Positions 9,525 through 37,920 of a DNA stretch of 64,000 nt are shown here, in pieces. The notes beneath the pieces were generated by a model. The model had not been told where the DNA came from. It searched no databases and saw nothing but the letters and a program-made list of their open reading frames with translations. The position numbers and the translations under genes were made by a program. Source of the DNA: Acidobacteriaceae bacterium (GTDB lineage: Bacteria; Acidobacteriota; Terriglobia; Terriglobales; Acidobacteriaceae). How positions within the stretch are numbered: the stretch's first letter is position 1; each line of letters begins with the position of its first letter. The stretch spans positions 1 through 64,000 of the forward strand of contig DASZBM010000001.1 of assembly GCA_035944135.1 (NCBI GenBank). The letters are read 5' to 3'.

Positions 9525-10739
9525 TTACCGAGCGACTGTAGGATGATGCTCTGGCGAGGGTACGCCTCCACTCTTTGCACCAGGGGCAAGCAAATCATCC
9601 CGGCAACCTGGCGGTGCGTTGATGATGTTGCAGCGGGCAGGCAGGCCACCCGCGAAACCGACGCTATACCCGGTCCATTTCGATGGCTCCGAGAGCGGAT
9701 AGTCGGTACTGATCATCTGCGCACCGGAGTGTAGCAGCTCATCTCTTCGAGTTGTGTCATTGGTGCGTGCGGCCATTGTGTTCTCGTCGGCGCGCGCGCG
9801 AACGATATAGCCCTGGCGGACGAGTTGATCGATAACCTGCGGCGAGCCCTCATTCTCTTCGACAAAAGCAGCGTCCGGCTTACCGGGGTTGGAGTTGGTA
9901 AACAACACACGTCCCTGCAGAAGAGGATGACCGGTGGTATAGGGCGGTCCAGCGTTCTTCTGGTCCATCAAAAAGATCACTCGGCCGCGGGATTTTGCAA
10001 GCGTGGGCCAATTCCCTGCCCGGACGGCGGCGTCCAGCGTGGGATAGCTTCCACGAACTTCGTCGGGCAGTATCATTTCTCGATCCGGGAAGACCGAACG
10101 AATCTCTTTGTCGAGCCGATCAAAGGTCTCGGTCGTGAAGAGCTCGGCTTCTACGCTGTTCGGGATGGATTGCGTGCGTCCATGTTTGGTCTCGATCAAC
10201 AGAAACAGGGGAACGTGCTCAGGGTGCGCTTTCGACCATGCGCGAATCTCGCGCAGACAATCTGTGAGTAGAAGGCAGGAGCTGCGCTGGTTCAGATCCG
10301 CGATGTGAATGACCTTGAAGCCCGGCTTGTCCATCTCGTGATTTGGATCGAAGTCCGGATCGGGCGGCAGACCGGCCTGCTTCGTCAGTTCAACAATCTT
10401 GGGATGGGCGAAGCGGCCGCCTTTGGGATCCTGGGCGATGTCGATCTCGAGCTGCCGAACGCCGCCATCGAGCTGGGCGGTTAGCGACGCGTGGTGATAC
10501 TCGAGACCTTCATATGCTTTCGGGTTTTGCCTGCGCGCGTACTTCTCTTCGCTGGGCGCAAACCCAAGGTTATAGCTGTTGTGCGACCCGATTACCTGGA
10601 TCTGGTTCAGGTGTACCAGCTTGTCCTGCGCAGCGGTCGTTTGCGCTGCCGCGAACGTCGCGATCCCGCTGAATCCGACTAGAAGCGCAGCCGGAACCGT
10701 CCAATTGTTGAGCCCCTTTTTCAGTCGATCTGCAGGCAA
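9525..10739 (-). CDS. Secreted Ca2+-dependent phosphoinositide phospholipase C-like enzyme
   Basis: The 404-residue protein has a hydrophobic N-terminal export signal (about 14-33). It then matches the bacterial Ca2+-dependent PI-PLC family: GSHNSY with catalytic His53, LDGGVRQLEIDI with Glu98/Asp100 as metal ligands, and FLLIETKHG further on. Such enzymes split phosphatidylinositol, and sometimes GPI anchors, into diacylglycerol and (cyclic) inositol phosphate outside the cytoplasm. Start is TTG with AAAGGA nine bases upstream. It follows a TonB receptor on the same strand (about 90-base gap), probably one transcript. A myo-inositol oxygenase lies at 37.0-37.9 kb under a similar operator. 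Confidence 0.85.
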   Translation of the reverse strand: MPADRLKKGLNNWTVPAALLVGFSGIATFAAAQTTAAQDKLVHLNQIQVIGSHNSYNLGFAPSEEKYARRQNPKAYEGLEYHHASLTAQLDGGVRQLEIDIAQDPKGGRFAHPKIVELTKQAGLPPDPDFDPNHEMDKPGFKVIHIADLNQRSSCLLLTDCLREIRAWSKAHPEHVPLFLLIETKHGRTQSIPNSVEAELFTTETFDRLDKEIRSVFPDREMILPDEVRGSYPTLDAAVRAGNWPTLAKSRGRVIFLMDQKNAGPPYTTGHPLLQGRVLFTNSNPGKPDAAFVEENEGSPQVIDQLVRQGYIVRARADENTMAARTNDTTRRDELLHSGAQMISTDYPLSEPSKWTGYSVGFAGGLPARCNIINAPPGCRDDLLAPGAKSGGVPSPEHHPTVAR

Positions 10740-10831
10740 CGATGCTCGTCCTTTCGTTGTTGATCCAGAGATGTGCCGTGCACCAAGAAGTTTGGGAGCA
10801 GAATACTGCTCCCTGAGGAAGTGAATGCAGT

Positions 10832-13800
10832 TTAGAAGATGATCTTGCCGGCGAACTGCATCTGGCGCGCCGGGAAGTAGCTAGTGATAGAGCCGAACGA
10901 GCTGCCATCGGTAATGGCACTGTCGGGCGCCTGCCAATTGGTGACGTTGAACGCGTTGAAAACCTCCGCACGGAAATCGAGCTTCAGCCGTTCGAAGCCG
11001 AGGCCGAATTGCTTGTGCAGGCCGAGGTCGGTGTCGAAGTACTTGAAGCCGCGCAGGTTGTTGCGCGAGACGTTGCCATACGCGCTGGTGTTTCCGTAGA
11101 GCGCATAGGATGGGACAACGTAGCTAGCCAGTGGGAGGTAGTTTTGGAGGCCGGTGTACTTCGTCGGCTTCGCCCACGAGGACTTCCCGTTGCGCCACGG
11201 TGTTCCGGGCAGGTGCTGTGGCCGCAAAGTCGCGAGGTCCGTTGTGAACAGCGGACCGGCCGCGGTAGAGCTCGACGCGGAACTCGAATAGGTGATGTTG
11301 AACGGAAGGCCGCTGGTCATGGTGTTGATCATGGTAAGCTCCCAGCCGCCGAGCACCTGCTGCATCAGGCCGTTCGCATCATGCCCCCAACGCTGACCGT
11401 GACCGTAAGGCAGATCCCAAACGATCGAGGTGGTGTTATCAATCGGCTGGTCATAGCTTGATGGGCCGTAGTCATTGCGCGGGTTGGCAAAGTTCACGCG
11501 CGAGTTGTCGCCGTTGCCGGTTTCCAGATGGCCGGAAGCAAGATCGAAAGCCCGGCTGTAGGTGAATGAATTGAGCAGGTAGAGCGCGCCGAATCGCTTT
11601 TCGACTTTGAGCTGTAGTGCGTTGTAGCTGGCAGAGCCTTCATTCAGCGCAATCTCGATGTCACCGAAGGTCGGCACGGGCCGGCGGGCCTGATACGTCT
11701 GACCGGCCGCGTTGCACGCCGTGACCGAAGCCAGAAGGCATGGGGCAGCCTGGTTGTAGTCCGCCAGAACCTGAATGTGGCGGCCCACGTTGCCAACATA
11801 GGCCAAATCCAACAGGATGTTGCCAGGCAACTGGCGCTGCACGCCTGCGAAGTAGCTCTGCACATAACCGGTCGCAAAGTTCGGCGGGATGTAGCGAGAG
11901 GTAACGTTCAGCGGATTGAAGTAAGCGGGGCTGGTCAGGCCGGCGGCATAACCCTGCTGGGTCTGACGGAAGCAGTTCGTCTGCACCTGCGTATCGTTCA
12001 CGCAGAGGTTGGATCCCACTGGCGTAACGAACGGAGTTGGGTTGTTGATGGAGGCGTTGACTACATCAGGACCGTTGTAGGTCAGGTTATTTTCGCCTCC
12101 CTCACGGTTGTACTGTACGAACACCAGACCATAGCCTGCGCGAAGAGCAGTCTTTGAGTCGAGCGCATAGGCGAGACCCAGGCGCGGCGCGAGGTTCTTA
12201 GAGGGGACATGCACAAGCGCGCGGTTGTAGATGCTGCCGTTTGAGGCCTGCGTGAGCGTGTTCGTGACTGGATTGAAGTTGGCGAGGTGATTGTCGCGCT
12301 CGAACTGAGGGGTCATCACTTCGTAGCGGAGACCGACGTTCACCGTCAGCTTTGGTGAGAGTGAGACGTCATCCTGGAAATAACCAGCGAAGTAGCGCTG
12401 ACGAAGATTCACAATGGTGTAGTTGGTGAGCGAGTAGGAACTGCGGTTGCCGAAAAGAAAGTCGGCGACCTCCTGAGCCTGGGCGATCTGAGTATCAGTG
12501 GAAGCGGCCGGAAGGCAGGCAACGGCGGGGTTCTGGGCGCAGGTGGGGAAGAAGGGATTACCGCCAACCGTCGGCCCCGCGGCGAACCTACTGGCATAGT
12601 TGTCCTGACCGTAGCTTGGATTGAAGTCGTTTACCTGGGTGTGTATAAGCTGCTGCTCGTAACCGAACTTCATCGATTGTTTGCCGCGTACCCAGGTGTA
12701 GTTGATCTTGGGGTTGAAGATGGTGGGATCCTGGAACTGCGGGCTCGCAGGCTGATTGCCGAGCTGCGTAAAGCCGCTGATCGACTGTGCGTTCAGTGTG
12801 CGGACGATGTTCGGATCGGTTGGCAGGCCATCCGTGATGCCGTACTTGGTGAGAAGCGAGGGCTGTCCCTGCGTGTACGGCGATTTGGCACCAATGTTGC
12901 GGGTCCAGCCGAAGCGAATGTCCAGCAGCTTGTTCTGGCTGATGATCCAGGTTGCGCCGCCGGCGATCTGGCGGTTCTGGACATTGACGTTTGAGTTTGC
13001 GTTGCCGCCTGCAGGACCACCTACTGTGGGAGGATCAAAGATTTCTTCGCGGTGCTCGGTATAACGAGCAAACAGTTGCCAATGCGCGTAGTGCTGGTCA
13101 ACGCGGATATCACCTTTGTCGTCGTTGATGCTGCCGCGCGGAGCGTTTGAATAGTTGTTGGTGTAGTAGTTGGAGGTGGTCGGATCGGAGCTTACATTAT
13201 TCGCGGGCAAAGCGGCAAGTACAGCCAAGGCAAACGGCGTTGAACCGGAAGAGATATCGCCGCTCGTGTACGTAACGCCGGTGACTGGATTGTAGAGTGG
13301 GATCGGTTTGGTCGGATCGCCGTTGTAGAAGAAGTGACCGAGACGTTGCTGCGCGTTGGGCAGCGATACTGGCGCGAGCTGATAATTGAAGATCTGACGG
13401 AGCCCCTCATAGTCGGCGAAGGCGAAGATTTTGTCCTTGATGATGTGGCCGCCGAAGGTGCCGCCGAACTGATTGCGGATGAGCTTCGGCTTTTGGTTCG
13501 TGATCGGCTCAATCGGTCCAACGGCATTCAAGCTGGTGTTGCGAATGTAGTCCCAGGCATGGCCGTGGTATTCGTTGGTACCGCTGCGCGTGGACACATT
13601 GATGACCGCGCCGGGCATGCGACCATACTCGGCGGAGTAGTTGTTCGTCTCCAGGCGGAACTCGCTGACCGCGTCGGGCGATGGCGAGATGTTCTCGTTT
13701 TCGAAGCCCTGGTTCGATGTGCCGTAGTTGGAGTTCTCGAGGCCATCGATCAAAAACTCATTGAACTCCGAGCGCTGGCCGTTGATGTTGAAGGCACCCT

Positions 13801-14353
13801 CACGACTGGAAGCGGTCTGATTCTCCAACATTGATTTACGCGTGCCTGGCGCTAACAGCACGAGGTCAGCATATGATCTGCCGTTCAACGGAAGATTTTC
13901 GACTTCCTTCGTTCCGATGACCTGGCTTCGAGAGCTGGTCTGCGTCTCGAGCAGCTCGGCCGCCGAGGTAACCTCGACGACCTGATTTACCGCCCCTGGC
14001 TTCACGTCAATGTCCAGGCGCTGGCGTGCGTCTGTCGACAGATTGAAGGTGTCGGTTTTCGTGCCCTCGAAGCCAGAGGCTGCGGTCGAAATCTGATAAT
14101 TCCCGATCGGCACGGAATCGAATTCGTACTTGCCTTCTTTGTCGGTCTGGGCGGTCTGGGAGACGTTCGTGCCGACATTGGTGAGTGTCACGGTTGCACC
14201 GGGCACCATAGCACCGGTGTTGTCGCGGACATAACCAAGCACCGACGCCGAGCCGAACTGAGCAGACGCGGGCACCAGCCCGCATGCGAGGCACAGCAAT
14301 GCCAGCACTACCGTCCGTAGGAATCCCAAAACCGGATGCACATTTGCGTCCAT
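10832..14353 (-). CDS. Oar-like TonB-dependent receptor with N-terminal carboxypeptidase-regulatory-like domain (receptor A)
   Basis: A very large outer-membrane protein with signal peptide (ending about ASAQ), a carboxypeptidase-regulatory-like beta-sandwich (SVLGYVRDNTGAMVPGATVTLTN), a plug region (LPLNGRSYADLVLLAPG, INGQRSEFNEFLIDG) and a long beta-barrel ending in an aromatic IIF terminus. This is the common acidobacterial receptor type, thought to import large ligands. The ATG at 14353 has GGAGAG eight bases upstream; another in-frame ATG at 14377 lacks a ribosome site. TTACCGGTAA-type palindromes lie upstream. It is paired with the PI-PLC gene downstream. The ligand is not known. Confidence 0.9.
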   Translation of the reverse strand: MDANVHPVLGFLRTVVLALLCLACGLVPASAQFGSASVLGYVRDNTGAMVPGATVTLTNVGTNVSQTAQTDKEGKYEFDSVPIGNYQISTAASGFEGTKTDTFNLSTDARQRLDIDVKPGAVNQVVEVTSAAELLETQTSSRSQVIGTKEVENLPLNGRSYADLVLLAPGTRKSMLENQTASSREGAFNINGQRSEFNEFLIDGLENSNYGTSNQGFENENISPSPDAVSEFRLETNNYSAEYGRMPGAVINVSTRSGTNEYHGHAWDYIRNTSLNAVGPIEPITNQKPKLIRNQFGGTFGGHIIKDKIFAFADYEGLRQIFNYQLAPVSLPNAQQRLGHFFYNGDPTKPIPLYNPVTGVTYTSGDISSGSTPFALAVLAALPANNVSSDPTTSNYYTNNYSNAPRGSINDDKGDIRVDQHYAHWQLFARYTEHREEIFDPPTVGGPAGGNANSNVNVQNRQIAGGATWIISQNKLLDIRFGWTRNIGAKSPYTQGQPSLLTKYGITDGLPTDPNIVRTLNAQSISGFTQLGNQPASPQFQDPTIFNPKINYTWVRGKQSMKFGYEQQLIHTQVNDFNPSYGQDNYASRFAAGPTVGGNPFFPTCAQNPAVACLPAASTDTQIAQAQEVADFLFGNRSSYSLTNYTIVNLRQRYFAGYFQDDVSLSPKLTVNVGLRYEVMTPQFERDNHLANFNPVTNTLTQASNGSIYNRALVHVPSKNLAPRLGLAYALDSKTALRAGYGLVFVQYNREGGENNLTYNGPDVVNASINNPTPFVTPVGSNLCVNDTQVQTNCFRQTQQGYAAGLTSPAYFNPLNVTSRYIPPNFATGYVQSYFAGVQRQLPGNILLDLAYVGNVGRHIQVLADYNQAAPCLLASVTACNAAGQTYQARRPVPTFGDIEIALNEGSASYNALQLKVEKRFGALYLLNSFTYSRAFDLASGHLETGNGDNSRVNFANPRNDYGPSSYDQPIDNTTSIVWDLPYGHGQRWGHDANGLMQQVLGGWELTMINTMTSGLPFNITYSSSASSSTAAGPLFTTDLATLRPQHLPGTPWRNGKSSWAKPTKYTGLQNYLPLASYVVPSYALYGNTSAYGNVSRNNLRGFKYFDTDLGLHKQFGLGFERLKLDFRAEVFNAFNVTNWQAPDSAITDGSSFGSITSYFPARQMQFAGKIIF

Positions 14354-14486
14354 GACTGTCTCTCCAAAGAGGTTCATCGTTGAGGCCGTGACACGTCACC
14401 GCCCATCTGCGTCAAAGCGCAGCAGCAGGATCGAGCCGACTAAATGCGACGAAACTACGCGCGGCGCAATGCTTCTGTCAAGATGC

Positions 14487-14498
14487 TTTACCGGTAAC
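14487..14498. promoter_or_regulatory. LacI-type operator TTACCGGTAA upstream of receptor A
   Basis: TTTACCGGTAAC has a perfect 10-bp palindromic core (14488-14497) and differs by one base from the site at the inositol oxygenase gene (37909-37920). It sits 5 bases upstream of a TTGACA -35 element. The CG-centred symmetry is typical for LacI-family operators. Confidence 0.6.
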
Positions 14499-14566
14499 GC
14501 ACAGCCACGGCTGTTGTTTCTTAACCTAAAGAATATGCACGGCTTATAAAACCAATGCAAATTGGA

Positions 14567-14574
14567 AACCGGTT
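14567..14574. promoter_or_regulatory. Possible second LacI-type operator upstream of receptor A
   Basis: GGAAACCGGTTACA contains the palindrome AACCGGTT and shares the CGGTTAC half-site style with the 14487 site. Position fits a second upstream operator; weak on its own. Confidence 0.3.
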
Positions 14575-14696
14575 ACAACATTTTCGTAAAAGAAGTTTCG
14601 GAGTTCACGCCAACCTGTGTTTGGGTGCATCGACGCGAGTACGACGTCGCCGGAGCGTTTTCTGGCGTCTCAGCAGCGGCGACCACTCTCTGTTCT

Positions 14697-19677: not shown

Positions 19678-20218
19678 ACCCTCGATGAAAGCATCGTAAG
19701 TTCGCGCAAAGACAATGTCAATCTATTGTGATCGATTTTCGCTCTCAATCTCTGCCTATTGGCGATCACAGAAGCAGATCTACGGGTTACTGAATTTCAG
19801 AGGTGGACGCTGACAATTGTTGCCATGATGAAAAGCGCTTGTGTCACTCCTCTTCATTAGCAATCGATTCGTCCCAGGTACTGCGGCTTTGGTCCCTGAA
19901 TCCGTGAATTTATACGCGAGCAGGACCCACCTACAGATATCCGAATGATCGCGGCTTGATTGCGATGCTCATACCCAAACCACAGGTGACGTGTCGCCGA
20001 CTCATCCCAACGATGTCGCCTCTCGTCACGCGCCTCTGCGGCACGTCACTTCCACGCGCCGATGCGCCCAATAGGCGATATACATGCACAGCGCTTACGC
20101 AGGCCAGTGACGGCCCTGCGTACAGCCGCCCCGGGGAGGGAATGGAGTGCTGCTCAACAAAGAGTGCCCAGAGTGCTGTACGCAGGGCAATCAACTGGTG
20201 CGTACCCGGAGGGGAAAG
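19678..20218. other. Divergent control region between GH79 and receptor B
   Basis: About 540 bases without a supported gene. Seen here: inward-facing 8-bp arms TGTGATCG (19727-19734) and CGATCACA (19763-19770) close to the GH79 start, and a 14-bp inverted repeat (20113-20126 with 20175-20188) in the leader of receptor B. Confidence 0.5.
20113..20188 (+). repeat. 14-bp inverted repeat in the receptor B leader
   Basis: GCCCTGCGTACAGC at 20113-20126 pairs perfectly with GCTGTACGCAGGGC at 20175-20188 around a 48-base loop. The right arm ends about 20 bases before the ribosome site of receptor B, so the RNA could fold next to the translation start. No T-run follows, so it is not a terminator. Confidence 0.5.
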
Positions 20219-23200
20219 ATGAAGCCTTCATTCAGAGCACTCAGCCTGCTTTTGTTACTCGCCGCTTGCTCCTTCGCAGCTATGGCGCAAACCAGCAAAG
20301 GGATTCTTGCCGGCGTAATCCGTGATAATACCGGCGCCGTGATTCCGAGTGCTTCAATAACCATCACCGAGCAGGCTACGGGAGCCGCGCGCACTTCCCA
20401 CTCCGACGCGCAGGGAACATTTCGCGTCGACGCGATGAATCCGGGACTCTACACGATACGAGTGGAGATGAACGGATTCGTCACGAAGGTCGTTCAGGAC
20501 CTCAACGTGCAGCCCTCGATCGTGACTGACTATGACCCTGTGATGATTCCTGGCGGTGTGTCAGAGTCCGTACTGGTTGAAGCAAACTCGAACACGATCA
20601 ACACGGAGAATGGTCAGCTTGCGGGAACGATCAGCAGCGCAGAGCTTTCGAGTGTGCCGATCTTCACGCTGAATCCTATTGAGCTCGCGACCACGATCCC
20701 CGGCGTTCAGGTTGTGGATTCCAATCTTGGACTCGGCGGGATCGGCGGCAACTTTGAACAGATCGAAGTCAATGGCACCCGTCCGCGCGCGAATAACTTC
20801 ATGATGGATGGGCAGGACATAAACGATACCGGCATCGGTGGCCAGTCTTTCAATCCGCAGATCCCAGATGCCTTTGAAACCGTGACTGCCATCACCAACT
20901 CCGCTTCAGCAGAATACGGACGCGCAGGCGGAGCGATTGTGAACCTGGTTACAAAGAGCGGTAGCAGTAAATTTCATGGTGATGCCTGGGAGCTCTATTC
21001 AGGTTCTGGGCTAGATTCTCTTGATGGCATCACGCGTAAGGGCAAACCATATCCGAATAACCCAAAGGCACGTTACGACGAGCACCAGCCAGGTTTCACC
21101 GCAGGTGGTCCGATTTGGAAAAATAAGCTGTTCGCATTCGGCGGCTTGGTTGTTGAACGGTACTTTGGGAATTCGCAGCCGGGAGCGTTTGAATATCCAG
21201 ATGCTGCCGGTTACGCACAACTGCAGGCGATCGGCGGACCACAGGTCACGTTGCTCGATAGCTACCTGTATAACGGGTCTTACCTCACCAGCTATGTCAA
21301 CGTCGGCGAGGCGAATGCGTACGCGATCACTTCACGCCCTGGCTGTCCGAGTGGTTGCACCATCACTACGGCGCTGTTCGAGCGACCTGCCGTTGCACAA
21401 CAAGCTCCTGAGACACAGTGGATCTATCGCATTGATTTCACGCCGCGGCAACAGGATCAGTTTTCTTGGCGCTATCTTCACGATCGGGCCAACTTCGTGC
21501 CCGATCTGGGCGTAAATTTCTCCGGCCTTCCCGGGTTCGATGGCGAGGTCGGCGGTCCTACGGAGCTGGGTCAGGGTGCGTGGACGCACATCTTCACCGC
21601 CAAGCTCCTGAACGAGTTCCGTGCGTCGGAAACTCGGCTGGACATTCTGTTCCAGGGAACGCCGCAGTCCCAAGCTAACCCGCTCTATACAGCTCCGAAT
21701 ATCACATTCAATGGACAAGGATTCGGAGGGGCAGCGACGCCGCTTGGCTTCGCCCAGACAATTCTGCCGCAGGGCACCATCCAGGACCTGTATCAGTACC
21801 AGGATACGGTGAGCTGGACCCACGGTCGGCAGACGTGGCGCATCGGTGCCGATGTCGGTCGCGACATTGAGATCGACCTCGTGGCTCAAAACGCCAATGG
21901 TGGCCTTCTCTACACGTCGGGTGGAGGCGCATCGGCCCTGGACAATTTCCTTGATAATTATCTAGGTTCTTCCGGGCAAGCCAGCAAGACCTTCGGACCT
22001 ACGCGCGTGGATCCGCACAGCTGGCGCACGGCCACATTTGCGCAGGATGATGTCAAGCTCACACCGGAGCTGACGCTCAATCTGGGTTTGCGTTACGACT
22101 ATCTGACAAATCCCGAGAACTCTCTGCCATATCCAGCGGTTGATATCAACAACCCATATCAACCCATCACGACCGTCGTTCCTGTGATCAACGACAAGAA
22201 CAATATCGCTCCGCGGTTCGGCTTCGCCTGGAATCCGCATGGTAGCGTCTTTGCAGACGGCAAGACGGTTTTCCGCGGCGGCTTCGGCGGATTTTACGAC
22301 ACAGACTTCACGAACATCGTCACGAATGGGGCTCAAGCGGCGCCCAATGCGCCCACGGGAACGCTGACCTGCACAGGCAGCACATGCCCACGAGGATTGG
22401 GCAACTCCACCGGCCTGCTCAACACGATTTCACCAACCTTGACCGCCATGTCTACGGTGCAAACCGTGTCGAACCATATGGTCAATCCGCTCACATGGCA
22501 ATGGAACTTCGGGATTGAGCGCCAACTACCGGGCCAGTTTAGGATCGCACTAAATTATGTCGGCAATCGCGGTGAAAAGCTGTTTGCTAACCAGCAATTG
22601 AACTACGAGGTGAATGGTGTCCGGATTAATCCGAGCCGGGGCATCATCAACATCCGTTCAAATCGAGCCGACTCCGAATACAACAGTGCGCAGGTCGAAG
22701 TTTCGCGGCAGTACTCGCATGGATTGTTCGTACGCGCAGTCTATGTTTACGGAAAGGATCTGGATGACGCGTCGGAGGTGTTTGGCACCTTTGCATCACC
22801 GACATCGTATTCGGCAAATCTTGCACCCAACGGTCTCCACCAGGACTGGGGACCCTCCGTCTGGGACCATCGTCAATATGCCTCGTTTATTTACTCCTGG
22901 ACACCTGGGGGATTCCACTCCAGCAGGAAGGGCGTGAATACGGCACTCAGCGTCTTTACGCGACACTTCACGATCTCGGGAACGACGGAACTGCAGTCAG
23001 GTCCTTATACGACTTTCAACTTCAACGGTCTGGATATGAACGACGACGGTAGTTCCGCGAACGATCGTCCGCTCGTTGCCAATGCCAGCCAGCCTATCGA
23101 TACGGCCGCCTTTGACGGATACTATTTCGGGCCGCCGTATACTCCCGGCGTCTATTATGATGCCGCCACCGGTAACCCTGTCCCTCCAACACAAGAGCAT

Positions 23201-23755: not shown

Positions 23756-24847
23756 TTGTATATGCATCCGTTGCTGTTTGCGGCAGCCTGGTTGTTGATG
23801 GGCGTTCTGTTCTCTGTGCAGGACTGGGCGGAGATCCATCGCCTCAACGTGCATCTGCATTTCGGACAGATTCTATGGGCGTGGGAGGTGATGTACATCA
23901 TCTGGGCTGCATTCCTCTGGATTCTGGTTCGGTTCTGGGGGGAATGGCTTCTGCAGGTGAAAGTCCTCCAAACGCTCCTTTACCTTCTTCCGCTGAGCAT
24001 AGCGCTTACGGTCCTGGAGGAAATGCTTTGGCTGCTTTGTTTCCCGCAATATCCCATCAGCCCATCGCATTTGAGCTATTGGGTTCGGCTCGGGCAGGTC
24101 CTTCGCCAGGAGATGATCGATGGCATCATCATCTTTTGGGTGGCCTTCTTTTTCTATCGTGGCGCCACCTACTATACCCGGCTTCGTGAGAAAGAAACTG
24201 CCGCGGAGCAGCTCAAGACCGAACTCGTCCATGCCCAGATGAGCGCCCTGCGCACCAACCTCAATCCACACTTTCTGTTCAATACGCTCAATGGAATCTC
24301 CAGCCTGATGCGGACCGACGTGGGAAGTGCAGATGAAATGCTGGAACAACTTGCCAGTCTGCTGCGTATTACGTTGCAACGCGAGGACGTTCAGCAGATT
24401 CGGCTGAGCGACGAGATCGGGTTTGTCGAAATGTATATGGCGATGCAGCAACGAAGGTTTGCTGGGCGCGTTCGCGAGCACGTGCGAATTGCTCCGGAGC
24501 TGCATGATGCCCTCGTCCCTGCAATGCTTCTTCAGCCAATCGTCGAGAATGCATACACACACGGCATCTCGCGTGTGGATCGTGATGGTTTTCTGGAAAT
24601 CGAGGCGCAAAGGATCGGCGACCGCGTGTGCATCAAGATCACGAACAGCGGCAGCGGGATCCAGGATGTCTCGAACGGTGGCGGCCGAGGGCTGACAAAT
24701 GTAAAGAGTCGCCTGCAGTTGCATTACGGGGAAAGACAGAGCTTCATTCTGCAGGAGCGGGTGCCTGGGGTCGTGACAGCCATGTTGACCTTCCCCTTCC
24801 AGCGTGGCCCCGCTGAAACAGAGATGGCCGTGAACTATGGTGCGTGA
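23756..24847 (+). CDS. LytS-type sensor histidine kinase
   Basis: The product has several N-terminal membrane segments (about residues 1-140), then a His_kinase domain with NLNPHFLFNTLNGISSLMR (phospho-acceptor His) and a HATPase region with MLLQPIVENAYTHGIS (N box) and GRGLTNVKSRL (G box). It phosphorylates the LytTR regulator whose gene overlaps its stop codon. A strong AAGGAGGG lies at 23703-23710, but the first usual start codons in frame are TTG 23756 and ATG 23762. A CTG at 23717, six bases after that ribosome site, may be the real start and would add 13 residues. The signal is unknown; linkage to receptor B suggests a nutrient cue. Confidence 0.9.
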   Translation: MYMHPLLFAAAWLLMGVLFSVQDWAEIHRLNVHLHFGQILWAWEVMYIIWAAFLWILVRFWGEWLLQVKVLQTLLYLLPLSIALTVLEEMLWLLCFPQYPISPSHLSYWVRLGQVLRQEMIDGIIIFWVAFFFYRGATYYTRLREKETAAEQLKTELVHAQMSALRTNLNPHFLFNTLNGISSLMRTDVGSADEMLEQLASLLRITLQREDVQQIRLSDEIGFVEMYMAMQQRRFAGRVREHVRIAPELHDALVPAMLLQPIVENAYTHGISRVDRDGFLEIEAQRIGDRVCIKITNSGSGIQDVSNGGGRGLTNVKSRLQLHYGERQSFILQERVPGVVTAMLTFPFQRGPAETEMAVNYGA

Positions 24848-25599
24848 TGATCCCAACAGTTTTGGCAGATGATGAGGTGCTTGCGCGTCAGAAACTACGC
24901 CAGATGCTGCGCGAAGATCCGGAGATTGAGATCGTGGGTGAATGCGCCAGCCTGACGGAAACAATCGAGCTGGTGCGCAGCACAAGACCGCGTCTCCTCT
25001 TCCTGGACATTCGGATGCCTGGCGGCGATGCGTTTCAGGTGATCGATGAGCTCTCGAACCGTGGCAATTTTAAGATGCCGCAGATTATCTTTACCACTGC
25101 TTATGATAGCTACGCTCTCCGCGCATTTGAGATCGATGCGGCGGACTATCTTCTTAAGCCGTACACAAACGACCGGTTGCAGGTAGCACTGCAGCGTGTC
25201 TGCAGGCAGATCAAAGCCGATCAATTTGGGGTTTCCGAGACAACTCACTCGCCGAGGGAAAACGGATATTCGAAGCGCATCGTATTCAAGTCACGAGGTC
25301 GCATCATCTTTCTTCCCGTTTCGCAGATCCGGTGGATCGGCGCAGAGGAAAACTACGTCCGCATCTCCACCGACAATGAGATGCACCTATTGCGCGAAAC
25401 AATGGCGCGGATCGAGGAGAAGTTGGACCCGCAAACATTCCTGCGCATCCACCGTTCGTCGATTGTGAATCTGCAGTTTGTAAAAGAGGTCCGTACTGAG
25501 GGGAATGGCGAGTCCGCCGTCGTACTGCTCAACGGGCAAAAGCTTGTGATGAGCCGCAGCTATCGCACACGTATCAACGAGTGGCTCGCGCGAAGTTGA
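24847..25599 (+). CDS. LytTR-family response regulator
   Basis: A receiver domain (residues 1-120) carries the acidic pocket near VLADDE and the phospho-acceptor Asp of LFLDIRMPGG, and TTAYDSYALRAFEIDAADYLLKP holds the conserved Thr and Lys. A LytTR DNA-binding domain (about 145-250) follows with WIGAEENYVRI and FLRIHRSSIVNL. The ATG overlaps the kinase stop codon by one base (TGATG), so the pair is translationally coupled. LytTR proteins bind imperfect direct repeats upstream of targets; none was identified by eye. Confidence 0.93.
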   Translation: MIPTVLADDEVLARQKLRQMLREDPEIEIVGECASLTETIELVRSTRPRLLFLDIRMPGGDAFQVIDELSNRGNFKMPQIIFTTAYDSYALRAFEIDAADYLLKPYTNDRLQVALQRVCRQIKADQFGVSETTHSPRENGYSKRIVFKSRGRIIFLPVSQIRWIGAEENYVRISTDNEMHLLRETMARIEEKLDPQTFLRIHRSSIVNLQFVKEVRTEGNGESAVVLLNGQKLVMSRSYRTRINEWLARS

Positions 25600-28814: not shown

Positions 28815-30314
28815 ATGGCAAAATATCTGGGGGCGCTCGACCAGGGCACAACGAGCACGCGATTTATCATCTTCGATCGGATTGGGCGCGCGGTGAGCAT
28901 GGCTCAGAAAGAACACGAGCAGATCTATCCCGCGCCAGGATGGGTCGAGCACAATCCCTGCGAGATCTGGCAGCGCACCCAGGAGGTGATTGCCGAAGCG
29001 TGCTCGAAGGGATCTGTGGCGTCCGAGGATATCGCATCAGTTGGCATCACCAACCAGCGCGAAACTACGGTAGTTTGGGACCGCCGAACAGGTGAACCCG
29101 TGACCAACGCTCTGGTTTGGCAGGACACGCGTGTAGGAGAGTATGTTGCGGCTCTCACTGCCGAGGGCGGTCAGGATAGATTCCGCGAGAAGACGGGTTT
29201 GCCGCTGGCGACATACTTCAGTGGCCTGAAGATCCGCTGGATACTCGACCACATTGACGGAGCGCGAGCCCGCGCAGAACGCGGCGATCTTCTGTTTGGC
29301 AACATCGACACGTACCTGCTATGGAACATCACAGGCGGCATCGATGGCGGCGTACACCGCACGGACGTGACCAACGCGAGCCGCACGCAGCTGATGGATT
29401 TATCAACCCTTGCATGGGACGACGAGATGCTGCGGGAGTTCGAGATTCCGCAAGCGATGATGCCAGAGATCTGCCCCAGCAGCCACGACTTCGGCGAGAT
29501 AAAAGTTGGCTGCCTCAGCGGACTGCGGATTGGTGGCATCCTCGGCGACCAGCAAGCGGCCCTGGTCGGCCAGACCTGCTTTAAGCCCGGACAACTCAAG
29601 AACACTTACGGGACAGGCTGTTTTCTGGTGATGAACACCGGTTCAAACAAGGTGCTGTCGCAGAACGGACTGCTCACAACGATTGCTTATCAATTCGGCG
29701 ATCAGCCGGTGGTCTATGCGCTCGAGGGCAGTATCGCAATCACGGGCGCACTGGTGCAGTGGGTGCGGGATAATCTCGGTCTGATCCAGAGGAGCGAGGA
29801 AATAGAGCCGCTGGCGAAGTCTGTCACAGACAACGGTGGAGTCTACTTCGTGCCTGCCTTCTCTGGGCTTTACGCGCCATACTGGAAAGATGATGCGCGG
29901 GGTGTAATCGTCGGGCTGACGCGTTACGCGAACCGCGGACACATCGCGCGTGCGGTGCTCGAGGCGACGGCTTTTCAGACACGCGAGGTGATCGAGGCGA
30001 TGGAAGCGGATTCGCATATTCGGCTCGACCAATTGCGCACAGATGGCGGCATGGTCGCTAATGATCTGCTGATGCAATTCCAGGCTGACCTGCTGGACCG
30101 GCGTGTACTCCGTCCCTCTATGCGCGAGACCACGGCGCTCGGCGCAGCTTACGCTGCTGGCTTGCACTGCGGCTTCTACAAGGACACAGACGATCTCGTT
30201 GCAAACTGGTCTGTCGATAAAACGTGGGAGCCACGCTGTGACGAGCACGAACGTGAGCGGCTCTTCCGCCAATGGAAGAAGGCAGTTACGCGATCTTTCA
30301 ATTGGGTCGACTGA
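28815..30314 (+). CDS. glpK: Glycerol kinase
   Basis: Phosphorylates glycerol to sn-glycerol-3-phosphate with ATP in the cytoplasm. The 499-residue protein matches the FGGY kinase family throughout: [17 protein letters not shown] at the N-terminus, [21 protein letters not shown], the [14 protein letters not shown] phosphate loop region, KNTYGTGCF, and [19 protein letters not shown] near the C-terminus. Length and order are as expected. GGAGG lies upstream of the ATG. Followed by glpF after about 50 bases, forming an uptake-and-trapping unit. Confidence 0.97.
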
Positions 30315-30368
30315 ACCGGTTTGCAAGTATTAGCAACAATAAAAGGCAAGATCACAGGACGAGCGCAC

Positions 30369-31244
30369 ATGAGAAAAACATTCTTGGGTGAACTGATATC
30401 AGAAGCCGTGGCGGTGGGCATCATTATCGCGATCGGCGACTCTGTCGCTGCGATGTACGGCCTCTACGACCCAAGCCCTTACCAGCAGGCCTACTGGGGC
30501 GTCTGCATCGCGTGGGGTCTGGCAGTCACGATTGCAATCTACACAACTGCCTCGGTAAGCGGCTGTCACGCGAACCCGGCTGTCACGCTTGCGCTAGCCC
30601 TCTATAGGAAGTTCTCGTGGAGAAAAGTACTGCCGTACTTTGGTGCGCAGACGCTGGGAGGATTCGCGGGCGCGTGCTTCGTGTATGCGATCTACGTCCC
30701 TGTTATCAATCTCTTCAACGCGACACATCATATCGCGCGAAATGCCGGCGGGGCTGCAGGCGTGTTTTTCACGCATCCTGGCCTTGCGGTCACGCCGCGC
30801 CATGCCTTCATGGATGAGATATTGCTAACCGCGCTCCTCATCTTCGGGATCTTCGCGATCACGGAAAAGTACAATGAACAGGCGCCCGGAGCGAACTCCG
30901 GCGCGCTCATCATCGGCTTTCTTGTCGCGGCGATCGGCGCTTCGATGGGCTATCTCGAGGCGTGGGCGTTGAATCCGGCGCGTGATTTCGGACCTCGTCT
31001 GTTCTGTTTCTTTGCGGGCTGGGGCGCCGCGGCCTTCCCTTCCCCGCAGAACTATTGGTGGATACCAATTGCCGGGCCGCTGCTTGGCGGGGCGCTCGGC
31101 GGCATAGCCTACCAAATCCTGATCCATCCATATTTACCTGCACGTATTCGGGCTTCGGCGCAGATCATCGCAGGCGATCAGCCGATGGGGATTCCCGCAG
31201 GTACACCGGAATTAGCATCGGCAGCCCTGCCAGAAACGAAGTAG
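30369..31244 (+). CDS. glpF: Aquaglyceroporin / glycerol uptake facilitator (MIP family)
   Basis: Inner-membrane channel for glycerol. Six membrane segments and the two half-helix motifs are visible: GCHANPAVTLALAL (first NPA) and EAWALNPARDFGPR (second NPA, with the Asp/Arg typical of glycerol channels). The start is taken at ATG 30369 (MRKTFLGELISEA), the usual MIP N-terminus; an in-frame TTG at 30321 would add 16 non-conserved residues. The last 67 bases overlap the convergent 3' end of glpD. Confidence 0.93.
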   Translation: MRKTFLGELISEAVAVGIIIAIGDSVAAMYGLYDPSPYQQAYWGVCIAWGLAVTIAIYTTASVSGCHANPAVTLALALYRKFSWRKVLPYFGAQTLGGFAGACFVYAIYVPVINLFNATHHIARNAGGAAGVFFTHPGLAVTPRHAFMDEILLTALLIFGIFAITEKYNEQAPGANSGALIIGFLVAAIGASMGYLEAWALNPARDFGPRLFCFFAGWGAAAFPSPQNYWWIPIAGPLLGGALGGIAYQILIHPYLPARIRASAQIIAGDQPMGIPAGTPELASAALPETK

Positions 31245-32794
31245 AACTGCTGTGCAAGTTCGATGAAGCGCCGCGTTTCCCGCTCGACCCATTCGGGGCC
31301 ACGGCCCAACTCGGCTGCTAGAAGTCTGGCGACGGCAGGTGCCGATCGCTGCGCCGCCCTGGCGTCTAACAGCAATGCACGCGTTCTGCGCGAAAGCACA
31401 TCCTCGACGGTGCGAGCCATCTCATAGCGTGCAGCGAAGATCACTTCCGCGTGCGTGAAAGGCAATTCTGGATCCAGAAGGGTCGCCATCTGCGGATCGG
31501 ATACCCACATATCAGAGATCTCGGCGGCTTCAGTGCCATAGCGCGACAACGGAGAAGTCGATGGACTCTGTTCGGGCGCGCCGTGCAGGCGAACTGAACG
31601 TGTAACGCAGGGCCGATCAGGTAAAACTCCGTGACCGATCGCAGTGGAAAGAGTGTCTTCCGCCATCCGGCGATACGTCGTCCACTTGCCTCCAGCCACT
31701 GTAATGAGGCCGCTCGCTGCAACCTCGATCGTGTGCTCGCGAGAGAGTTTGGAGGTCTTCGCCTGACCGCCAGTGACGAGCGGCCGTAGGCCTGAGAAGA
31801 CGCTGAGGATATCGGCGCGCTCCAGAGGACGCGCAAGGTACGGATTGATCGTCTCGAGCAGGAAATCGATCTCGCGTGCCTCGTGACCTGGTTCGATCGC
31901 AACAGAGGAAGCAGGCAGATCAGTTGTGCCGATCACGACTTTGCCCAGCCACGGAATCGCGAAGATGATCCGGCCGTCGCGAGTTTTGGGCACCATGATC
32001 GCATTTCCATTCCCAAGTACCTCACCAGGCACAACAATGTGCGTACCGCGGCTCACCGACAGCATGTGTGGACTCGATGGCTGATCCTGCCTGCGCAAGT
32101 CATCTACAAAAATCCCTGTAGCGTTGATGAAAACACTGGCGTGAACCTCGACGGAATGGCCTGTCTCGATATCCTCCACTGTGACACTGCTAAGCTTAGC
32201 GCCTTGCTTATGCAGCCCCGTACAACGGGCATAGTTGAGCACGGTAGCTCCGTGATCCTCTGCCGTGCGCGCGAGTGCCAACGCGAGCCGGGCGTCGTCG
32301 AACTGGCCGTCGTAATACAACAGACTTCCTCTCAACCCTTTTGTAGCGATGCCAGGCACGCGCTCGAGCGTCTCTCCTGCTGAAAGGACACGCGTCGGAC
32401 CAAGCGATGATTTACCGCTAAGCACTTCATATGCCTTCAGGCCAATGCTGTAGTAGGGCAGATCGAACCACTTGTAGGCAGGTGTGACGAATGGCAGCGC
32501 GTGAACAAGGTGCGGTGCGTTCTCTAGCATGATCTTTCGTTCGCGAAGCGCTTCATAGACCAGGTGCAACTGCCCGCTGACGAGGTACCGCACACCTCCG
32601 TGCACCAGCTTGGTCGCGCGGCTGGAAGTCGCCTGCGCGAAGTCTCCGGCCTCGACAAGAGCGGTGCGAAAGCCGCGGGTTGCGGCGTCCACAGCAAGTC
32701 CTAGCCCTGTGGCCCCGCCACCGACGATCACAATATCCAGCTTGTCCTTATTCGACTCTTCCAGCCGTGCGAACTTTTCGGCGCGTGTGCTCAT
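31178..32794 (-). CDS. glpD: FAD-dependent glycerol-3-phosphate dehydrogenase
   Basis: Oxidises glycerol-3-phosphate to dihydroxyacetone phosphate at the inner membrane and passes electrons to quinone. The 538-residue protein opens with the FAD-binding IVGGGATGLGLAVDAATRGF, followed by TSSRATKLVHGGVRYL, TRDGRIIFAIPW and VAGGKWTTYRRMAEDT, all GlpD landmarks, and has the C-terminal helical DAO_C domain. It lies downstream of glpP on the same strand, with a strong hairpin in the 144-base leader. The 3' end overlaps the end of glpF. Confidence 0.96.
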   Translation of the reverse strand: MSTRAEKFARLEESNKDKLDIVIVGGGATGLGLAVDAATRGFRTALVEAGDFAQATSSRATKLVHGGVRYLVSGQLHLVYEALRERKIMLENAPHLVHALPFVTPAYKWFDLPYYSIGLKAYEVLSGKSSLGPTRVLSAGETLERVPGIATKGLRGSLLYYDGQFDDARLALALARTAEDHGATVLNYARCTGLHKQGAKLSSVTVEDIETGHSVEVHASVFINATGIFVDDLRRQDQPSSPHMLSVSRGTHIVVPGEVLGNGNAIMVPKTRDGRIIFAIPWLGKVVIGTTDLPASSVAIEPGHEAREIDFLLETINPYLARPLERADILSVFSGLRPLVTGGQAKTSKLSREHTIEVAASGLITVAGGKWTTYRRMAEDTLSTAIGHGVLPDRPCVTRSVRLHGAPEQSPSTSPLSRYGTEAAEISDMWVSDPQMATLLDPELPFTHAEVIFAARYEMARTVEDVLSRRTRALLLDARAAQRSAPAVARLLAAELGRGPEWVERETRRFIELAQQFYFVSGRAADANSGVPAGIPIG

Positions 32795-32830
32795 TCAACT
32801 CTCCGCAATCGCGTGTCCACGGAAAAACAA

Positions 32831-32890
32831 GAAAGCCGCCCGTGAATTCTGCCAATTCCTGCAGAACTCTCGGGCGGCTTTCAGAACTCT
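32831..32890 (-). promoter_or_regulatory. Leader hairpin between glpP and glpD, candidate GlpP antitermination site
   Basis: On the minus strand, GAAAGCCGCCCG pairs perfectly over 12 bp with CGGGCGGCTTTC and is followed by TTGTTTTTCC, a terminator shape. The direct repeat AGAGTTCTG (32882-32890 and 32862-32870, read in reverse) overlaps the left arm and loop and could take part in an alternative fold. In Bacillus, GlpP bound to glycerol-3-phosphate allows read-through of such a glpD leader terminator. Action here is inferred. It could also serve simply as the glpP terminator. Confidence 0.65.
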
Positions 32891-32938
32891 GCCGCAGCAG
32901 CAGTGAGGCTACATGCTTTATCCCGTGAAACGCAAGTG

Positions 32939-33559
32939 CTAGGAGATTGACCATAGTTGCGGATTACCGGTGGAGACAGCATCCAGTCCTTGTCGGATCA
33001 GTGAATCTGCCTCTTCCAGCCCCGAGATCAGCCCGCCGCCAACAGCTGCAATGTTTGGATAATCCTGCCTCAATGCAGGCAACATTCGTGGCGCGACGGG
33101 AGCCGGCAACAACTCTAGTGCGTCGGGAACAAACCTGTGCAGAGATCGCATAGTGCTGCTCACCGAGTCCGAGTCGATCATGAATGTTCGCTGCACGGCA
33201 TACAAGCCGTGACTGCGCGCAAGGTTCAACACATCGGTATGCGTGGAGATGATGCCTGCGCAGCCGCTCGCCGCGACGTATGCGACCGACTCACTGTGAC
33301 GCGAAAGGCCGGCAAACAGGTCAAGGTTGACCAGCACCTCCTTATCCTGCTCACGCAGCGTATGCAGATATTCATCCAACGTCGAAAGGGCCGCGGCCAG
33401 CAAGTAAACCACGCGAGACGGTGCGGCAGCAGCAGCTGACAGATCGGTCAGCGAGCGAAGCGCCGGGATCACTGGATACGTGCGCAACAAATGCCGCAGC
33501 TGGCCCGGGTCGTGCTCCGAAATTCGCGGGCCGATCGCATCTTTAGTTCGACGAGTCAT
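32939..33559 (-). CDS. glpP: GlpP-family glycerol-3-phosphate-responsive antiterminator
   Basis: A protein of about 206 residues with a TIM-barrel-like GlpP fold: YPVIPALRSL at the N-terminus, VLVNLDLFAGLSR, GIISTHTDVLNLARSHGL, VQRTFMIDSDSV, LELLPAPVAPRMLP, and VGGGLISGLEEADSLIRQG near the C-terminus. These closely follow Firmicutes GlpP. The ATG at 33559 has AAAAGGA seven bases upstream; a longer frame to 33664 lacks a ribosome site. It lies directly upstream of glpD and its leader hairpin, as expected for an RNA-acting regulator. Confidence 0.88.
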   Translation of the reverse strand: MTRRTKDAIGPRISEHDPGQLRHLLRTYPVIPALRSLTDLSAAAAAPSRVVYLLAAALSTLDEYLHTLREQDKEVLVNLDLFAGLSRHSESVAYVAASGCAGIISTHTDVLNLARSHGLYAVQRTFMIDSDSVSSTMRSLHRFVPDALELLPAPVAPRMLPALRQDYPNIAAVGGGLISGLEEADSLIRQGLDAVSTGNPQLWSIS

Positions 33560-33678
33560 ATCCATTCCTTTTGCACCAAGGTAGCAGGACGACGAAGGCC
33601 CATTTGCCGCGCAACGAGCCCGACCTGCAATTCGGGCGCTAACATGTGACCAACGGGAACACATCCCCTGACAGACTA

Positions 33679-36012: not shown

Positions 36013-36972
36013 ATGAATTACCCCAAAAGCCTTGACCTCGTTGGCGTGGGCCTGAATGCGACGGACACTTTGATCCGCCTATCCGAGTTTCCCCAGCGCG
36101 GGTCGAAGCTCGAATATGACGCAGAATCTCTTATGCCTGGCGGACAGGTCGCATCGACCGTCGTTGCGTGTCAGACCTGGGGCCTACGCACGCGCTATGT
36201 TGGGAAGCTCGGCGATGACGACGCGTCGCGTTTGCACGGTCGTGAGTTCGACCGGACGGGAGTTGAAGCCAAGCTCATCAACGTAAAAGGCGCCGCAAGC
36301 CCAAAATCGCTGATCATGGTTGACCCAGAGGGCGAACGAACCGTGTTGTGCCGTCGGGATGAACGGCTGATTCTTCAACCCGAAGAGCTGCGCCGCGATT
36401 GGATTACGGATGCTCGTGCACTCCATGTCGATGGGCACGATACGGCTGCGGCGATCCAGGCGGCCAGTTGGGCTCGCGAAGCTGGACTCGCTGTAATTGC
36501 CGACCTCGATGAAATCTATCCAGGTGTCGATGCACTAATCGAGAAGATCGATTATCTGATCGTCAGCCGCGACTTCCCTGCCCGTTTAACCGGCGAAAGA
36601 AATCTTGTTAAGGCTCTTCGTGAGATCCAGGCCCGCTATGGATGCCAGCTCACAGCAGCCACTCTCGGGCCGGGCGGCGTGCTCGCGTGGAATGGAGAGA
36701 GCGTCCATTACGCGCCTGCCTATCGCGTTCCGGTAGTCGACACGACTGGAGCAGGCGATATCTTTCACGCCGGCTTCATCTTTGCGCTGCTGCACGGATG
36801 GCCGCTGGAGCGCCAGCTCGATTTCGCATGCGCCGCCGCCGCGATGAACTGCATGGCGGAGGGTGCGCGAGGCGGGATCAGCAGCGTGGATTCTATCCTC
36901 AACTTTATGCAAACAACTCCGCACTATGACGAGAGCGTCGAGCAGGTCCTGCAAACAGAATTGTCATTCTAA
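36013..36972 (+). CDS. PfkB/ribokinase-family carbohydrate kinase
   Basis: Cytoplasmic kinase of 319 residues. Visible are the N-terminal glycine pattern (MPGGQVASTVVACQTWG), the substrate region, and the C-terminal PfkB signature DTTGAGDIFHAGFIFAL, containing the catalytic Asp and anion hole. It phosphorylates a sugar or sugar-acid (ribokinase, KDG kinase or fructokinase-like). It starts 56 bases after the oxidoreductase and may be co-transcribed with it. KDG kinase would fit a glucuronate route, but the sequence does not prove it. Confidence 0.85.
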   Translation: MNYPKSLDLVGVGLNATDTLIRLSEFPQRGSKLEYDAESLMPGGQVASTVVACQTWGLRTRYVGKLGDDDASRLHGREFDRTGVEAKLINVKGAASPKSLIMVDPEGERTVLCRRDERLILQPEELRRDWITDARALHVDGHDTAAAIQAASWAREAGLAVIADLDEIYPGVDALIEKIDYLIVSRDFPARLTGERNLVKALREIQARYGCQLTAATLGPGGVLAWNGESVHYAPAYRVPVVDTTGAGDIFHAGFIFALLHGWPLERQLDFACAAAAMNCMAEGARGGISSVDSILNFMQTTPHYDESVEQVLQTELSF

Positions 36973-37001: not shown

Positions 37002-37874
37002 TCACCAAGCGATCTTGTTCGGAAAGAACTCTGCAAACAGCTCGTCGTAATACGGCTTAAGCTCCTGCAGGTTGGGCTTGGTGTGACCCTTTGAATAAAG
37101 ATCGTATGGGTTGAACTTCAGCACCCACGGCAACATCGCCCGGTCCTGCTCATTGCAAAGATAGTCATACGCACCGTGCCGGTGCCAGGCATAGAACGAG
37201 TGATAGCGCAGCATATAAAGCGCTTCCATCGGAAGATAACTCTTCATTACCTCGTAGATGTAGCCATCGTGACCGAAGGACAGCTTTACGTTGTCCAGGC
37301 CACAGTTCGGCTCGTAAATGCCGTACTTAGTCTGATAGGCCGGATTGTTATAGTCCGGATTATCGCGGAAATACTCGGGAAATACGACAGCCTCGGAGTA
37401 CGCGCACCCGGTCGGAAATGTGTCGCCTACAACACCCCACTGCGGCTCGCCATATAGGCAGAGACACTTGCCAAGATCGTGCACGAAACCGGTAGCCACC
37501 ATCCACCGCGGATGTCCATCCCGGCGAATCGCTTCGGATGTCTGCAAGAGATGCTCGAGTTGCGTGAGATCTGTATCCGGGTCGCTGTCGTCAACCAGTG
37601 TGTTCAAATACTCCGCCGCCTCCCAGATGCTCTTCTGCCCTCGGGTCAGCCCGAAATACTCTTTCTCCTTCGCCAGCACGTACTCATGGGTTTGAAACGT
37701 GTGGTTCAGGCGATAGAACTCGGCCACGCCAGGATTCGCCGTTGCATCGTATTGCCGAAACTCCTCCTGCGACTTGCCTTCCTTGTATCGACCTTCAAGG
37801 AACTCGTCCCACTCCTCCATATCGGCTGACAGGGGGTTCTGCTTGGCTGAATCGAGCTGCGTTGCTGTGCTCAT
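37002..37874 (-). CDS. Bacterial myo-inositol oxygenase
   Basis: MIOX uses a di-iron centre and O2 to open myo-inositol to D-glucuronate in the cytoplasm. The 290-residue protein follows animal MIOX along its length and keeps every iron ligand: His121 (GHPRW), His132/Asp133 (HDLGK), His202 (GHDGY), His225 (YHSFY) and Asp258 (FNPYDLY). It also has GEPQWGVVGDTFPTGC and CNEQDRAMLPWV. GGAG eight bases before the ATG supports the start. It is divergent from a small membrane peptide and a sugar transporter. A perfect GTTACCGGTAAC palindrome lies 35 bases upstream, next to a TTGCCA-18-TATAGT promoter. MIOX is rare in bacteria; a Terriglobus homologue is known. Confidence 0.95.
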   Translation of the reverse strand: MSTATQLDSAKQNPLSADMEEWDEFLEGRYKEGKSQEEFRQYDATANPGVAEFYRLNHTFQTHEYVLAKEKEYFGLTRGQKSIWEAAEYLNTLVDDSDPDTDLTQLEHLLQTSEAIRRDGHPRWMVATGFVHDLGKCLCLYGEPQWGVVGDTFPTGCAYSEAVVFPEYFRDNPDYNNPAYQTKYGIYEPNCGLDNVKLSFGHDGYIYEVMKSYLPMEALYMLRYHSFYAWHRHGAYDYLCNEQDRAMLPWVLKFNPYDLYSKGHTKPNLQELKPYYDELFAEFFPNKIAW

Positions 37875-37908
37875 CGATCGACTCCAGGGGATCTCAAAAA
37901 GATCCTAC

Positions 37909-37920
37909 GTTACCGGTAAC
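37909..37920. promoter_or_regulatory. LacI-type operator between the divergent MIOX and transporter promoters
   Basis: GTTACCGGTAAC is a perfect 12-bp palindrome. It overlaps by two bases the -10 (TATAGT, 37919-37924) of the MIOX promoter. It also covers the -35 position of the opposite promoter, whose -10 is TATAAT at 37937-37942. One bound repressor could block both. The site matches the one at receptor A in 11 of 12 bases. Confidence 0.7.

Follow-up and report, generated by a model that had tools for sequence, protein, structure and literature searches.

A LacI-type regulator as the probable link between inositol oxidation and, somewhat less firmly, phosphatidylinositol cleavage in an Acidobacteriaceae bacterium

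The stretch of DNA studied here (the window) comprises positions 1 to 64,000 of contig DASZBM010000001.1 of an Acidobacteriaceae bacterium (assembly GCA_035944135.1; genome of 4,430,068 bases, labelled G000) and carries two groups of genes related to inositol. The first is read on the minus strand and begins with the gene of a TonB-type outer-membrane receptor, receptor A (10832-14377; PF25183, OMP_b-brl_4, 685 bits). It is followed by the gene of a phosphatidylinositol-specific phospholipase C (PI-PLC) of the Ca2+-dependent C1 family (9525-10739), which matches PF16670 over its full length (profile 1-328 of 329, 449.7 bits) and the solved PI-PLC1 3h4w in part, and whose N-terminus looks signal-like by eye. 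The run is completed by a LacI-family regulator (8373-9413; probable start at 9413, open frame to 9464) with the domains PF00356 (53.1 bits) and PF13377 (Peripla_BP, 118.1 bits), both above cut-off. These three genes are co-directional and separated by short gaps from 14377 to 8373. In the second group, a myo-inositol oxygenase gene, MIOX (37002-37874, minus strand), and that of a RhaT/GlcU-like transporter, predicted to import myo-inositol (38153-39445, plus strand; PF06800 above and TIGR00776 below cut-off), diverge from a common intergenic region. The MIOX domain is full-length and above cut-off (PF05153, profile 4-249 of 249, 351.6 bits), and the protein matches the solved inositol oxygenases 2huo (E 1.1e-75) and 2ibn (E 3.3e-75), sharing with the former the HD and HSFY motifs and the C-terminal W. 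A preliminary description of this DNA had proposed that one palindrome, present at both groups and bound by the LacI protein, joins them into an inositol regulon.

The two copies of the palindrome were located where that description had placed them. The window contains TTACCGGTAA exactly twice, at 14488-14497 and at 37910-37919, and none of 100 dinucleotide shuffles of the window contained it. By pattern match, the corresponding 12-mers are TTTACCGGTAAC upstream of receptor A (14487-14498) and GTTACCGGTAAC between MIOX and the transporter (37909-37920), the latter being kept at MIOX in relatives. With a position weight matrix (PWM) built from 40 related, non-independent sites, from which the window's own site was excluded, the MIOX site scored 21.0 bits and the receptor A site 15.1 bits (rank 2 in the window). 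The genome-wide search that had been suggested gave four copies of TTACCGGTAA in 4.43 Mb and one of the reversed-pattern control; the third copy lies on contig C3, outside the listed open frames (of at least 150 codons), and the fourth in the last codons, at the extreme end, of an open frame on contig C10. Once relatives had been seen, the pattern was widened, and it was the site and not the strict form of the original palindrome that held: the operator has the form GTTA[C/G]CG[C/G]TAAC, an even palindrome with a central CG. The window genome contains one exact match to the wider pattern GTTANCGNTAAC, namely the MIOX site. In most loci this pattern lies 25-97 bp upstream of the MIOX start, as befits a near-promoter operator of the LacI type; start codons of relatives were extrapolated from alignment with the window proteins, and such distances are therefore approximate.

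The distribution of these elements was studied in 120 genomes, a subset drawn from the Acidobacteriaceae. Orthologues of the LacI protein (55-68% identity) form with it a supported clade of 10 (support 95/91), which coincides with the identity limit used; this limit and those for MIOX (60%) and receptor A (55%) were chosen after the data had been seen. MIOX is present in 29 of the 120 genomes and PI-PLC in 16, and both are concentrated in the genomes with the LacI clade, MIOX in 9/10 against 20/110 of the others and PI-PLC in 9/10 against 7/110. Among the nine genomes with MIOX and the LacI clade, eight carry an exact GTTANCGNTAAC upstream of MIOX, 39-63 bp before its start. By contrast, no site with up to one mismatch was found within 350 bp in any of the 19 scorable MIOX genomes outside the clade (G108, whose upstream region ends at a contig end, was omitted). 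This association supports a link of the LacI protein with the palindrome and MIOX (Fisher p 3e-6; the genomes are related and non-independent, and p values are indicative only).

A second sample, partly overlapping the first (the contigs of L215, L218, L219 and L231 match in length those of L096, L097, L094 and L101), consisted of named loci, the best 80 of 373, some of them on short contigs. At MIOX the search for sites covered the 150 bp before the gene and its first 60 bp; at the transporter and at receptor A it began 400 bp upstream. A site with up to one mismatch was detected at MIOX in 33/36 loci (mean of 100 shuffles 0.17), at the transporter in 22/37 (0.21) and at receptor A of at least 55% identity in 10/14 (0.19). 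At the LacI gene itself only 4/80 loci had one. The neighbourhood also follows the regulator: where LacI identity was at least 59.5%, MIOX and the carrier were each present in 27/34 fetched stretches, falling to 8/23 and 10/23 at 54.5-59.5% and to 1/23 and 0/23 below 54.5%; the corresponding counts for PI-PLC were 10/34, 2/23 and 0/23.

These data bear directly on the idea that the two copies in the window stand there by chance. The two further genomic copies at unrelated places fit that idea, as do the 0 to 8 exact copies of GTTANCGNTAAC per genome across the 120 genomes; in most of these the pattern is rarer than its reversed control. Nevertheless, the empty shuffles, the conservation at MIOX, transporter and receptor A well above shuffled sequence and the lack of sites in the 19 MIOX genomes without the clade make it extremely improbable, and the operators of relatives, including those of G031 and G095 described below, already refute it in the main.

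We also considered that another regulator binds the palindrome and that the LacI protein is a mere neighbour with a different target. The window genome has 11 LacI-type helix-turn-helix domains, which leaves room for such a regulator. However, when the window protein was aligned with nine of its own paralogues (the eleventh, L023, was not alignable), it was alone in having the recognition helix TVTVSKVLRG, the helices of the nine others being different. In addition, the operator and the LacI clade occur together (8/9 against 0/19), many loci have the gene next to MIOX or the transporter, and an even palindrome with central CG is what most LacI-family sites look like according to a comparative survey (PMC4052901). 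We therefore regard a different regulator as very unlikely and infer that the protein encoded at 8373-9413 binds the palindrome.

At MIOX the position of the site suggests the kind of control. The predicted MIOX promoter (37919-37948, minus strand) consists of TTGCCA (37943-37948), a spacer of 18 bp and TATAGT (37919-37924), and the final two bases of TATAGT are the first two of the operator, so that the window reads TTGCCA, 18 bp, TATAGTTACCGGTAAC. Exactly the same overlap, TATAGTTA, was found in 19 of the 41 MIOX promoters with a site, out of 51 MIOX regions. Of the ten regions without a site, six (L104-L109) belong to genomes that lack the LacI clade; the others were L098 of G016 and three regions (L194, L209 and L210) in which LacI is present and the MIOX sites have two mismatches at best. 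As the operator overlaps the -10 box, repression is implied, and we consider it highly likely that LacI represses MIOX.

The geometry at receptor A is different. Read on the minus strand, the operator at 14487 is followed five bases on by TTGACA and thus lies upstream of the -35 box; TTGACA stands 5-21 bases past the operator in 14 of 17 receptor A loci. A second, weaker site (score of at least 4) lies 76-82 bp further upstream in 8 of the 17, against 0 to 3 loci in each of the other 7-bp distance bins. In the window this second site is weak (14565-14576, 78 bp upstream of the first; PWM 5.3, rank 23). Given the common direction and close spacing of receptor A, PI-PLC and LacI, the operator at 14487 would stand at the head of the whole run, the regulator's own gene included. 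No operator with up to one mismatch was found at the PI-PLC gene itself in 12 named loci, against 10/14 at receptor A, and PI-PLC is therefore probably read from the receptor promoter.

These positions raise the possibility that control has opposite signs at the two places, LacI repressing MIOX and activating receptor A, PI-PLC and its own gene from the site upstream of the -35 box. Capture would then be switched on under scarcity of inositol and oxidation under plenty. The contrast between a site on TATAGT at MIOX (19/41) and one followed by TTGACA at receptor A (14/17) argues for it, as does the LacI-type regulator IpsA, which, in the portion of the report consulted, activates from sites upstream of the -35 box and represses from sites at the -35 and -10 boxes (PMC3899939). 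On the other hand, the paired site about 78 bp upstream fits a loop-type or cooperative repression equally well, and the promoters were predicted by eye. Opposite signs are compatible with LacI control of both groups, of which they would be a special version, and we hold this version for possible, although on the unlikely side.

The strongest single check of the regulon came from G031 and G095. In these genomes the carrier, LacI, MIOX and the kinase stand together in that order, and receptor A (57% identical) and PI-PLC are remote, on another contig in G031 and about 2 Mb away in G095. Nevertheless, both carry an exact GTTACCGCTAAC, located 53-65 bp ahead of the aligned portion of the receptor and within a few bases of its extrapolated start, so that the remote operon has a perfect operator of its own. 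G031 and G095 are sister genomes and this therefore counts as one event, not two.

The joined order found in other relatives is carrier, LacI, MIOX, receptor A, in some cases a phosphoesterase, and PI-PLC. G034 has carrier and LacI and, after other genes, MIOX, receptor A and PI-PLC, whereas in G098 the order is PI-PLC, phosphoesterase and receptor A, then, after other genes, MIOX and, further on, LacI and carrier. Named loci with joined clusters included loci of Granulicella, Edaphobacter and Terriglobus roseus. In L185, from Edaphobacter lichenicola, receptor A, PI-PLC and LacI are ordered as in the window, with the carrier adjoining on the other strand, and L244 and L253 have the same order with the phosphoesterase added. 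A gene of the subclass B3-type metallo-beta-lactamase family lies between LacI and MIOX of G034 (L092:11817-12743).

Several observations weigh against the reading of these genes as one LacI regulon. G016 has the LacI clade and MIOX and shows a two-mismatch site only; G114 has LacI and PI-PLC and no MIOX; and no match to the LacI clade, MIOX or PI-PLC was found in G064 and G116, the two further sampled genomes of the window's genus. Sites with up to one mismatch are missing at 3/36 MIOX and 4/14 receptor A loci, LacI paralogues of other genomes have a near-identical recognition helix, and simple blocking is insufficient to explain a site upstream of the -35 box at receptor A. Acidisarcina polymorpha does not use myo-inositol, according to the part consulted of its report (PMC6252331), although Edaphobacter paludis is reported to grow on it (PMC11354219, likewise in part). 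Above all, the PI-PLC arm is uneven among the nine LacI-clade genomes with PI-PLC: a site with up to one mismatch stands at the receptor/PI-PLC unit in four (G000, G031, G034 and G095), a two-mismatch site in two (G066 and G098) and none in three (G035, G114 and G101), which slightly lowers our confidence in the regulon. No relative of receptor A was found next to PI-PLC in G035 and G114, and the receptor of G101 is 43% identical; all five genomes with a neighbouring receptor A of at least 55% identity have a site, four with up to one mismatch and one with two. Outside the LacI clade, the receptor A relatives beside PI-PLC in G117, G047 and G072 (42-47% identical) had no site. A second PI-PLC-C1 gene exists in the window genome, on contig C2 (L284, G000:C2:215500-235499), and no operator match of at least 8.5 was found in its 20-kb region.

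Taking all these results together, the central proposal of the preliminary description is very probably right, most firmly for MIOX and the carrier and somewhat less so for PI-PLC, where co-occurrence and the remote operator of G031 and G095 speak for the link and the uneven operator against it. Comparison of sequences makes it likely, in our view, that an inositol regulon is under the control of this LacI protein, with operators in two regions here and, in relatives, in as many as three. Without inductor, which is likely myo-inositol or a close compound, LacI would occupy GTTA[C/G]CG[C/G]TAAC, cover the -10 box of MIOX and keep the gene off; it probably would also silence the divergent unit of the transporter and the small gene before it across the shared intergenic region. 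PI-PLC, probably exported, would cleave phosphatidylinositol or related inositol lipids into diacylglycerol and an inositol (cyclic) phosphate. Receptor A would carry the head-group product or a related compound over the outer membrane, a phosphoesterase would release inositol from it, the RhaT-like carrier would take inositol in, and MIOX would convert it to glucuronate for a uronate route, a UxaC homologue being present once in the window genome.

The regulon may be real and yet fed from another source, namely free inositol, glycosyl-inositol lipids of fungi or plants or mannosylated inositol lipids of actinobacteria, phosphatidylinositol not being the main substrate. This reading is favoured by clusters of MIOX, LacI and transporter whose fetched stretch showed neither PI-PLC nor receptor A, among them L227-L230 and L239 from Asticcacaulis and Sphingomonas. 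Moreover, the window has the gene of a GH38-type mannosidase upstream of receptor A, three of the nine LacI-clade genomes have no operator at PI-PLC, and the substrate of PI-PLC cannot be read from its sequence. However, no GH38 match of at least 35% identity appeared among the matches listed for the 80 named loci, and PI-PLC accompanies the LacI clade (9/10 against 7/110). We regard another source as rather improbable.

The phosphatase that the preliminary description had not seen now has candidates. The first, a PHP/CehA-McbA-type metallohydrolase and candidate inositol-phosphate hydrolase, is encoded beside the carrier (39449-40993, minus strand; NF038032 257.9 bits, cut-off 80). Its N-terminus looks signal-like by eye, and its PHP metal-binding motifs, the HMH, DHN, EIT, NHP and SDNH stretches, align with 3e38. 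Its gene adjoins PI-PLC in L093, L193 and L277 and MIOX in L098. Among the listed papers on CehA and PHP, no title or abstract opening mentioned inositol-phosphate activity. The second, a calcineurin-like phosphoesterase, also with a signal-like N-terminus by eye, lies between receptor A and PI-PLC in relatives (G098, G095, L188, L193, L244 and L253) and shows weak similarity to cyclic phosphodiesterases of the SpdA type (40.6 bits against a cut-off of 400). As a general phosphatase of the system it was rejected, being present in 2/10 LacI-clade genomes and not found in the window genome at E 1e-20. The two proteins look like alternative inositol-phosphate hydrolases. The window genome also contains one inositol monophosphatase homologue (PF00459).

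Upstream of the CehA-type gene, 40990-41250 (minus strand) is probably the relic of the C-terminal part of a TonB receptor gene (E 4e-4 over 26 aligned residues), and L277 has a full-domain receptor in a run of receptor, CehA and PI-PLC. The third-best operator match of the window (41238-41249; PWM 12.4, rank 3) falls within this probable relic; since, in addition, 12 of 14 CehA genes, the window's own included, have no upstream site above 8.4, its role as an operator of this gene is doubtful.

A PfkB-type sugar kinase (36013-36972, plus strand; PF00294), possibly a downstream kinase of the ketodeoxygluconate type, has an orthologue adjoining MIOX in L090 and L091 and near it in L206; all NCBIfam models remained below cut-off on it. 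Between MIOX and the carrier, the small gene mentioned above encodes a conserved single-span membrane microprotein of 34 codons (38021-38125, plus strand; TTG start preceded by AAGGAGG), whose frame precedes the carrier gene at a short distance in 38 of 50 loci with a carrier. Its pN/pS was 0.36, compared with 0.96 and 2.23 when read out of frame (last 25 codons, 37 distinct sequences). A database search gave 76 matches, which were unnamed, hypothetical or misnamed; P0012 and P0077 bear the evidently wrong name translocated intimin receptor Tir. A tentative picture, possible although on the unlikely side, is a whole phosphoinositide-scavenging regulon of soil Acidobacteriaceae in which one LacI protein senses inositol and acts according to operator position. 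It would repress the oxygenase branch from the site on the -10 box; the capture branch (receptor A, PI-PLC and phosphoesterase), with its two sites some 78 bp from each other and upstream of the -35 box, would be under opposite or loop-dependent control, and the microprotein would be a small subunit of the carrier.

The extension of the regulon to glpK, based on a weaker match at 28699, did not survive: TTTACCGGTGGT scores -3.3 bits there (rank 293 in the window) and was rejected as an operator. The genes glpK, glpF and glpD are clustered with that of a glycerol-3-phosphate-responsive antiterminator (28815-33664) and may be under antitermination rather than under this LacI protein. Elsewhere in the window, a TonB-type receptor gene is followed by those of a histidine kinase and a LytTR-type response regulator (20147-25599), and a second LacI gene (59557-60645) and a third OMP_b-brl_4 receptor gene (55775-59293) are divergent; with GH35 and GH127 genes nearby, they probably mark a further locus for sugar use.

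If the regulon is as proposed, phosphoinositides from the membranes of plants, fungi or other microbes would be a dedicated food of soil bacteria, used by way of MIOX, a route best known from animals and plants. The operator is sharp enough to list the regulon in other acidobacterial genomes, and candidate functions would follow for a TonB receptor and a RhaT-like carrier, for two families of phosphoesterases and for the unnamed microprotein.

The classical iol pathway (IolG, IolC and others) degrades myo-inositol starting with an inositol dehydrogenase. The route proposed for the window degrades the same compound, but with MIOX in place of the dehydrogenase; the IolG and IolC models, which scored on nearby Gfo/Idh and PfkB genes, reached 94.9 bits (cut-off 355) and 82.7 bits (cut-off 300), and classical iol equivalogs were not found in the cluster. 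In environmental Francisella, a bacterial MIOX stands beside uronate genes and a route from glucuronate to the Entner-Doudoroff pathway was proposed; that cluster differs in its XylT-like transporter, and the part of the report consulted mentions no PI-PLC, TonB receptor or LacI operator (PMC3479022). The comparative survey cited above describes seven LacI-family IolR groups (PMC4052901); these regulators act locally on inositol use and were, as here, deduced by comparing genomes. The word Acidobacteria does not occur in the main text of the survey, and a counterpart described there for another phylum is possible. In the open-licence literature, no paper was found pairing myo-inositol oxygenase with Acidobacteria, nor any joining PI-PLC, MIOX and a LacI operator. 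IpsA of Corynebacterium and Mycobacterium, compared here by its description in the consulted part of the report, is likewise a LacI-type inositol regulator with a palindromic operator of central CG and an inositol-linked regulon, and myo-inositol was shown to be its effector (PMC3899939). It steers the synthesis of inositol phosphate and the assembly of lipids, whereas the gene neighbourhood in the window is catabolic, with breakdown of inositol by MIOX and cleavage of phosphatidylinositol. LacI-type inositol regulons are thus known, and it is the combination of PI-PLC, MIOX and a LacI operator that seems to be new.

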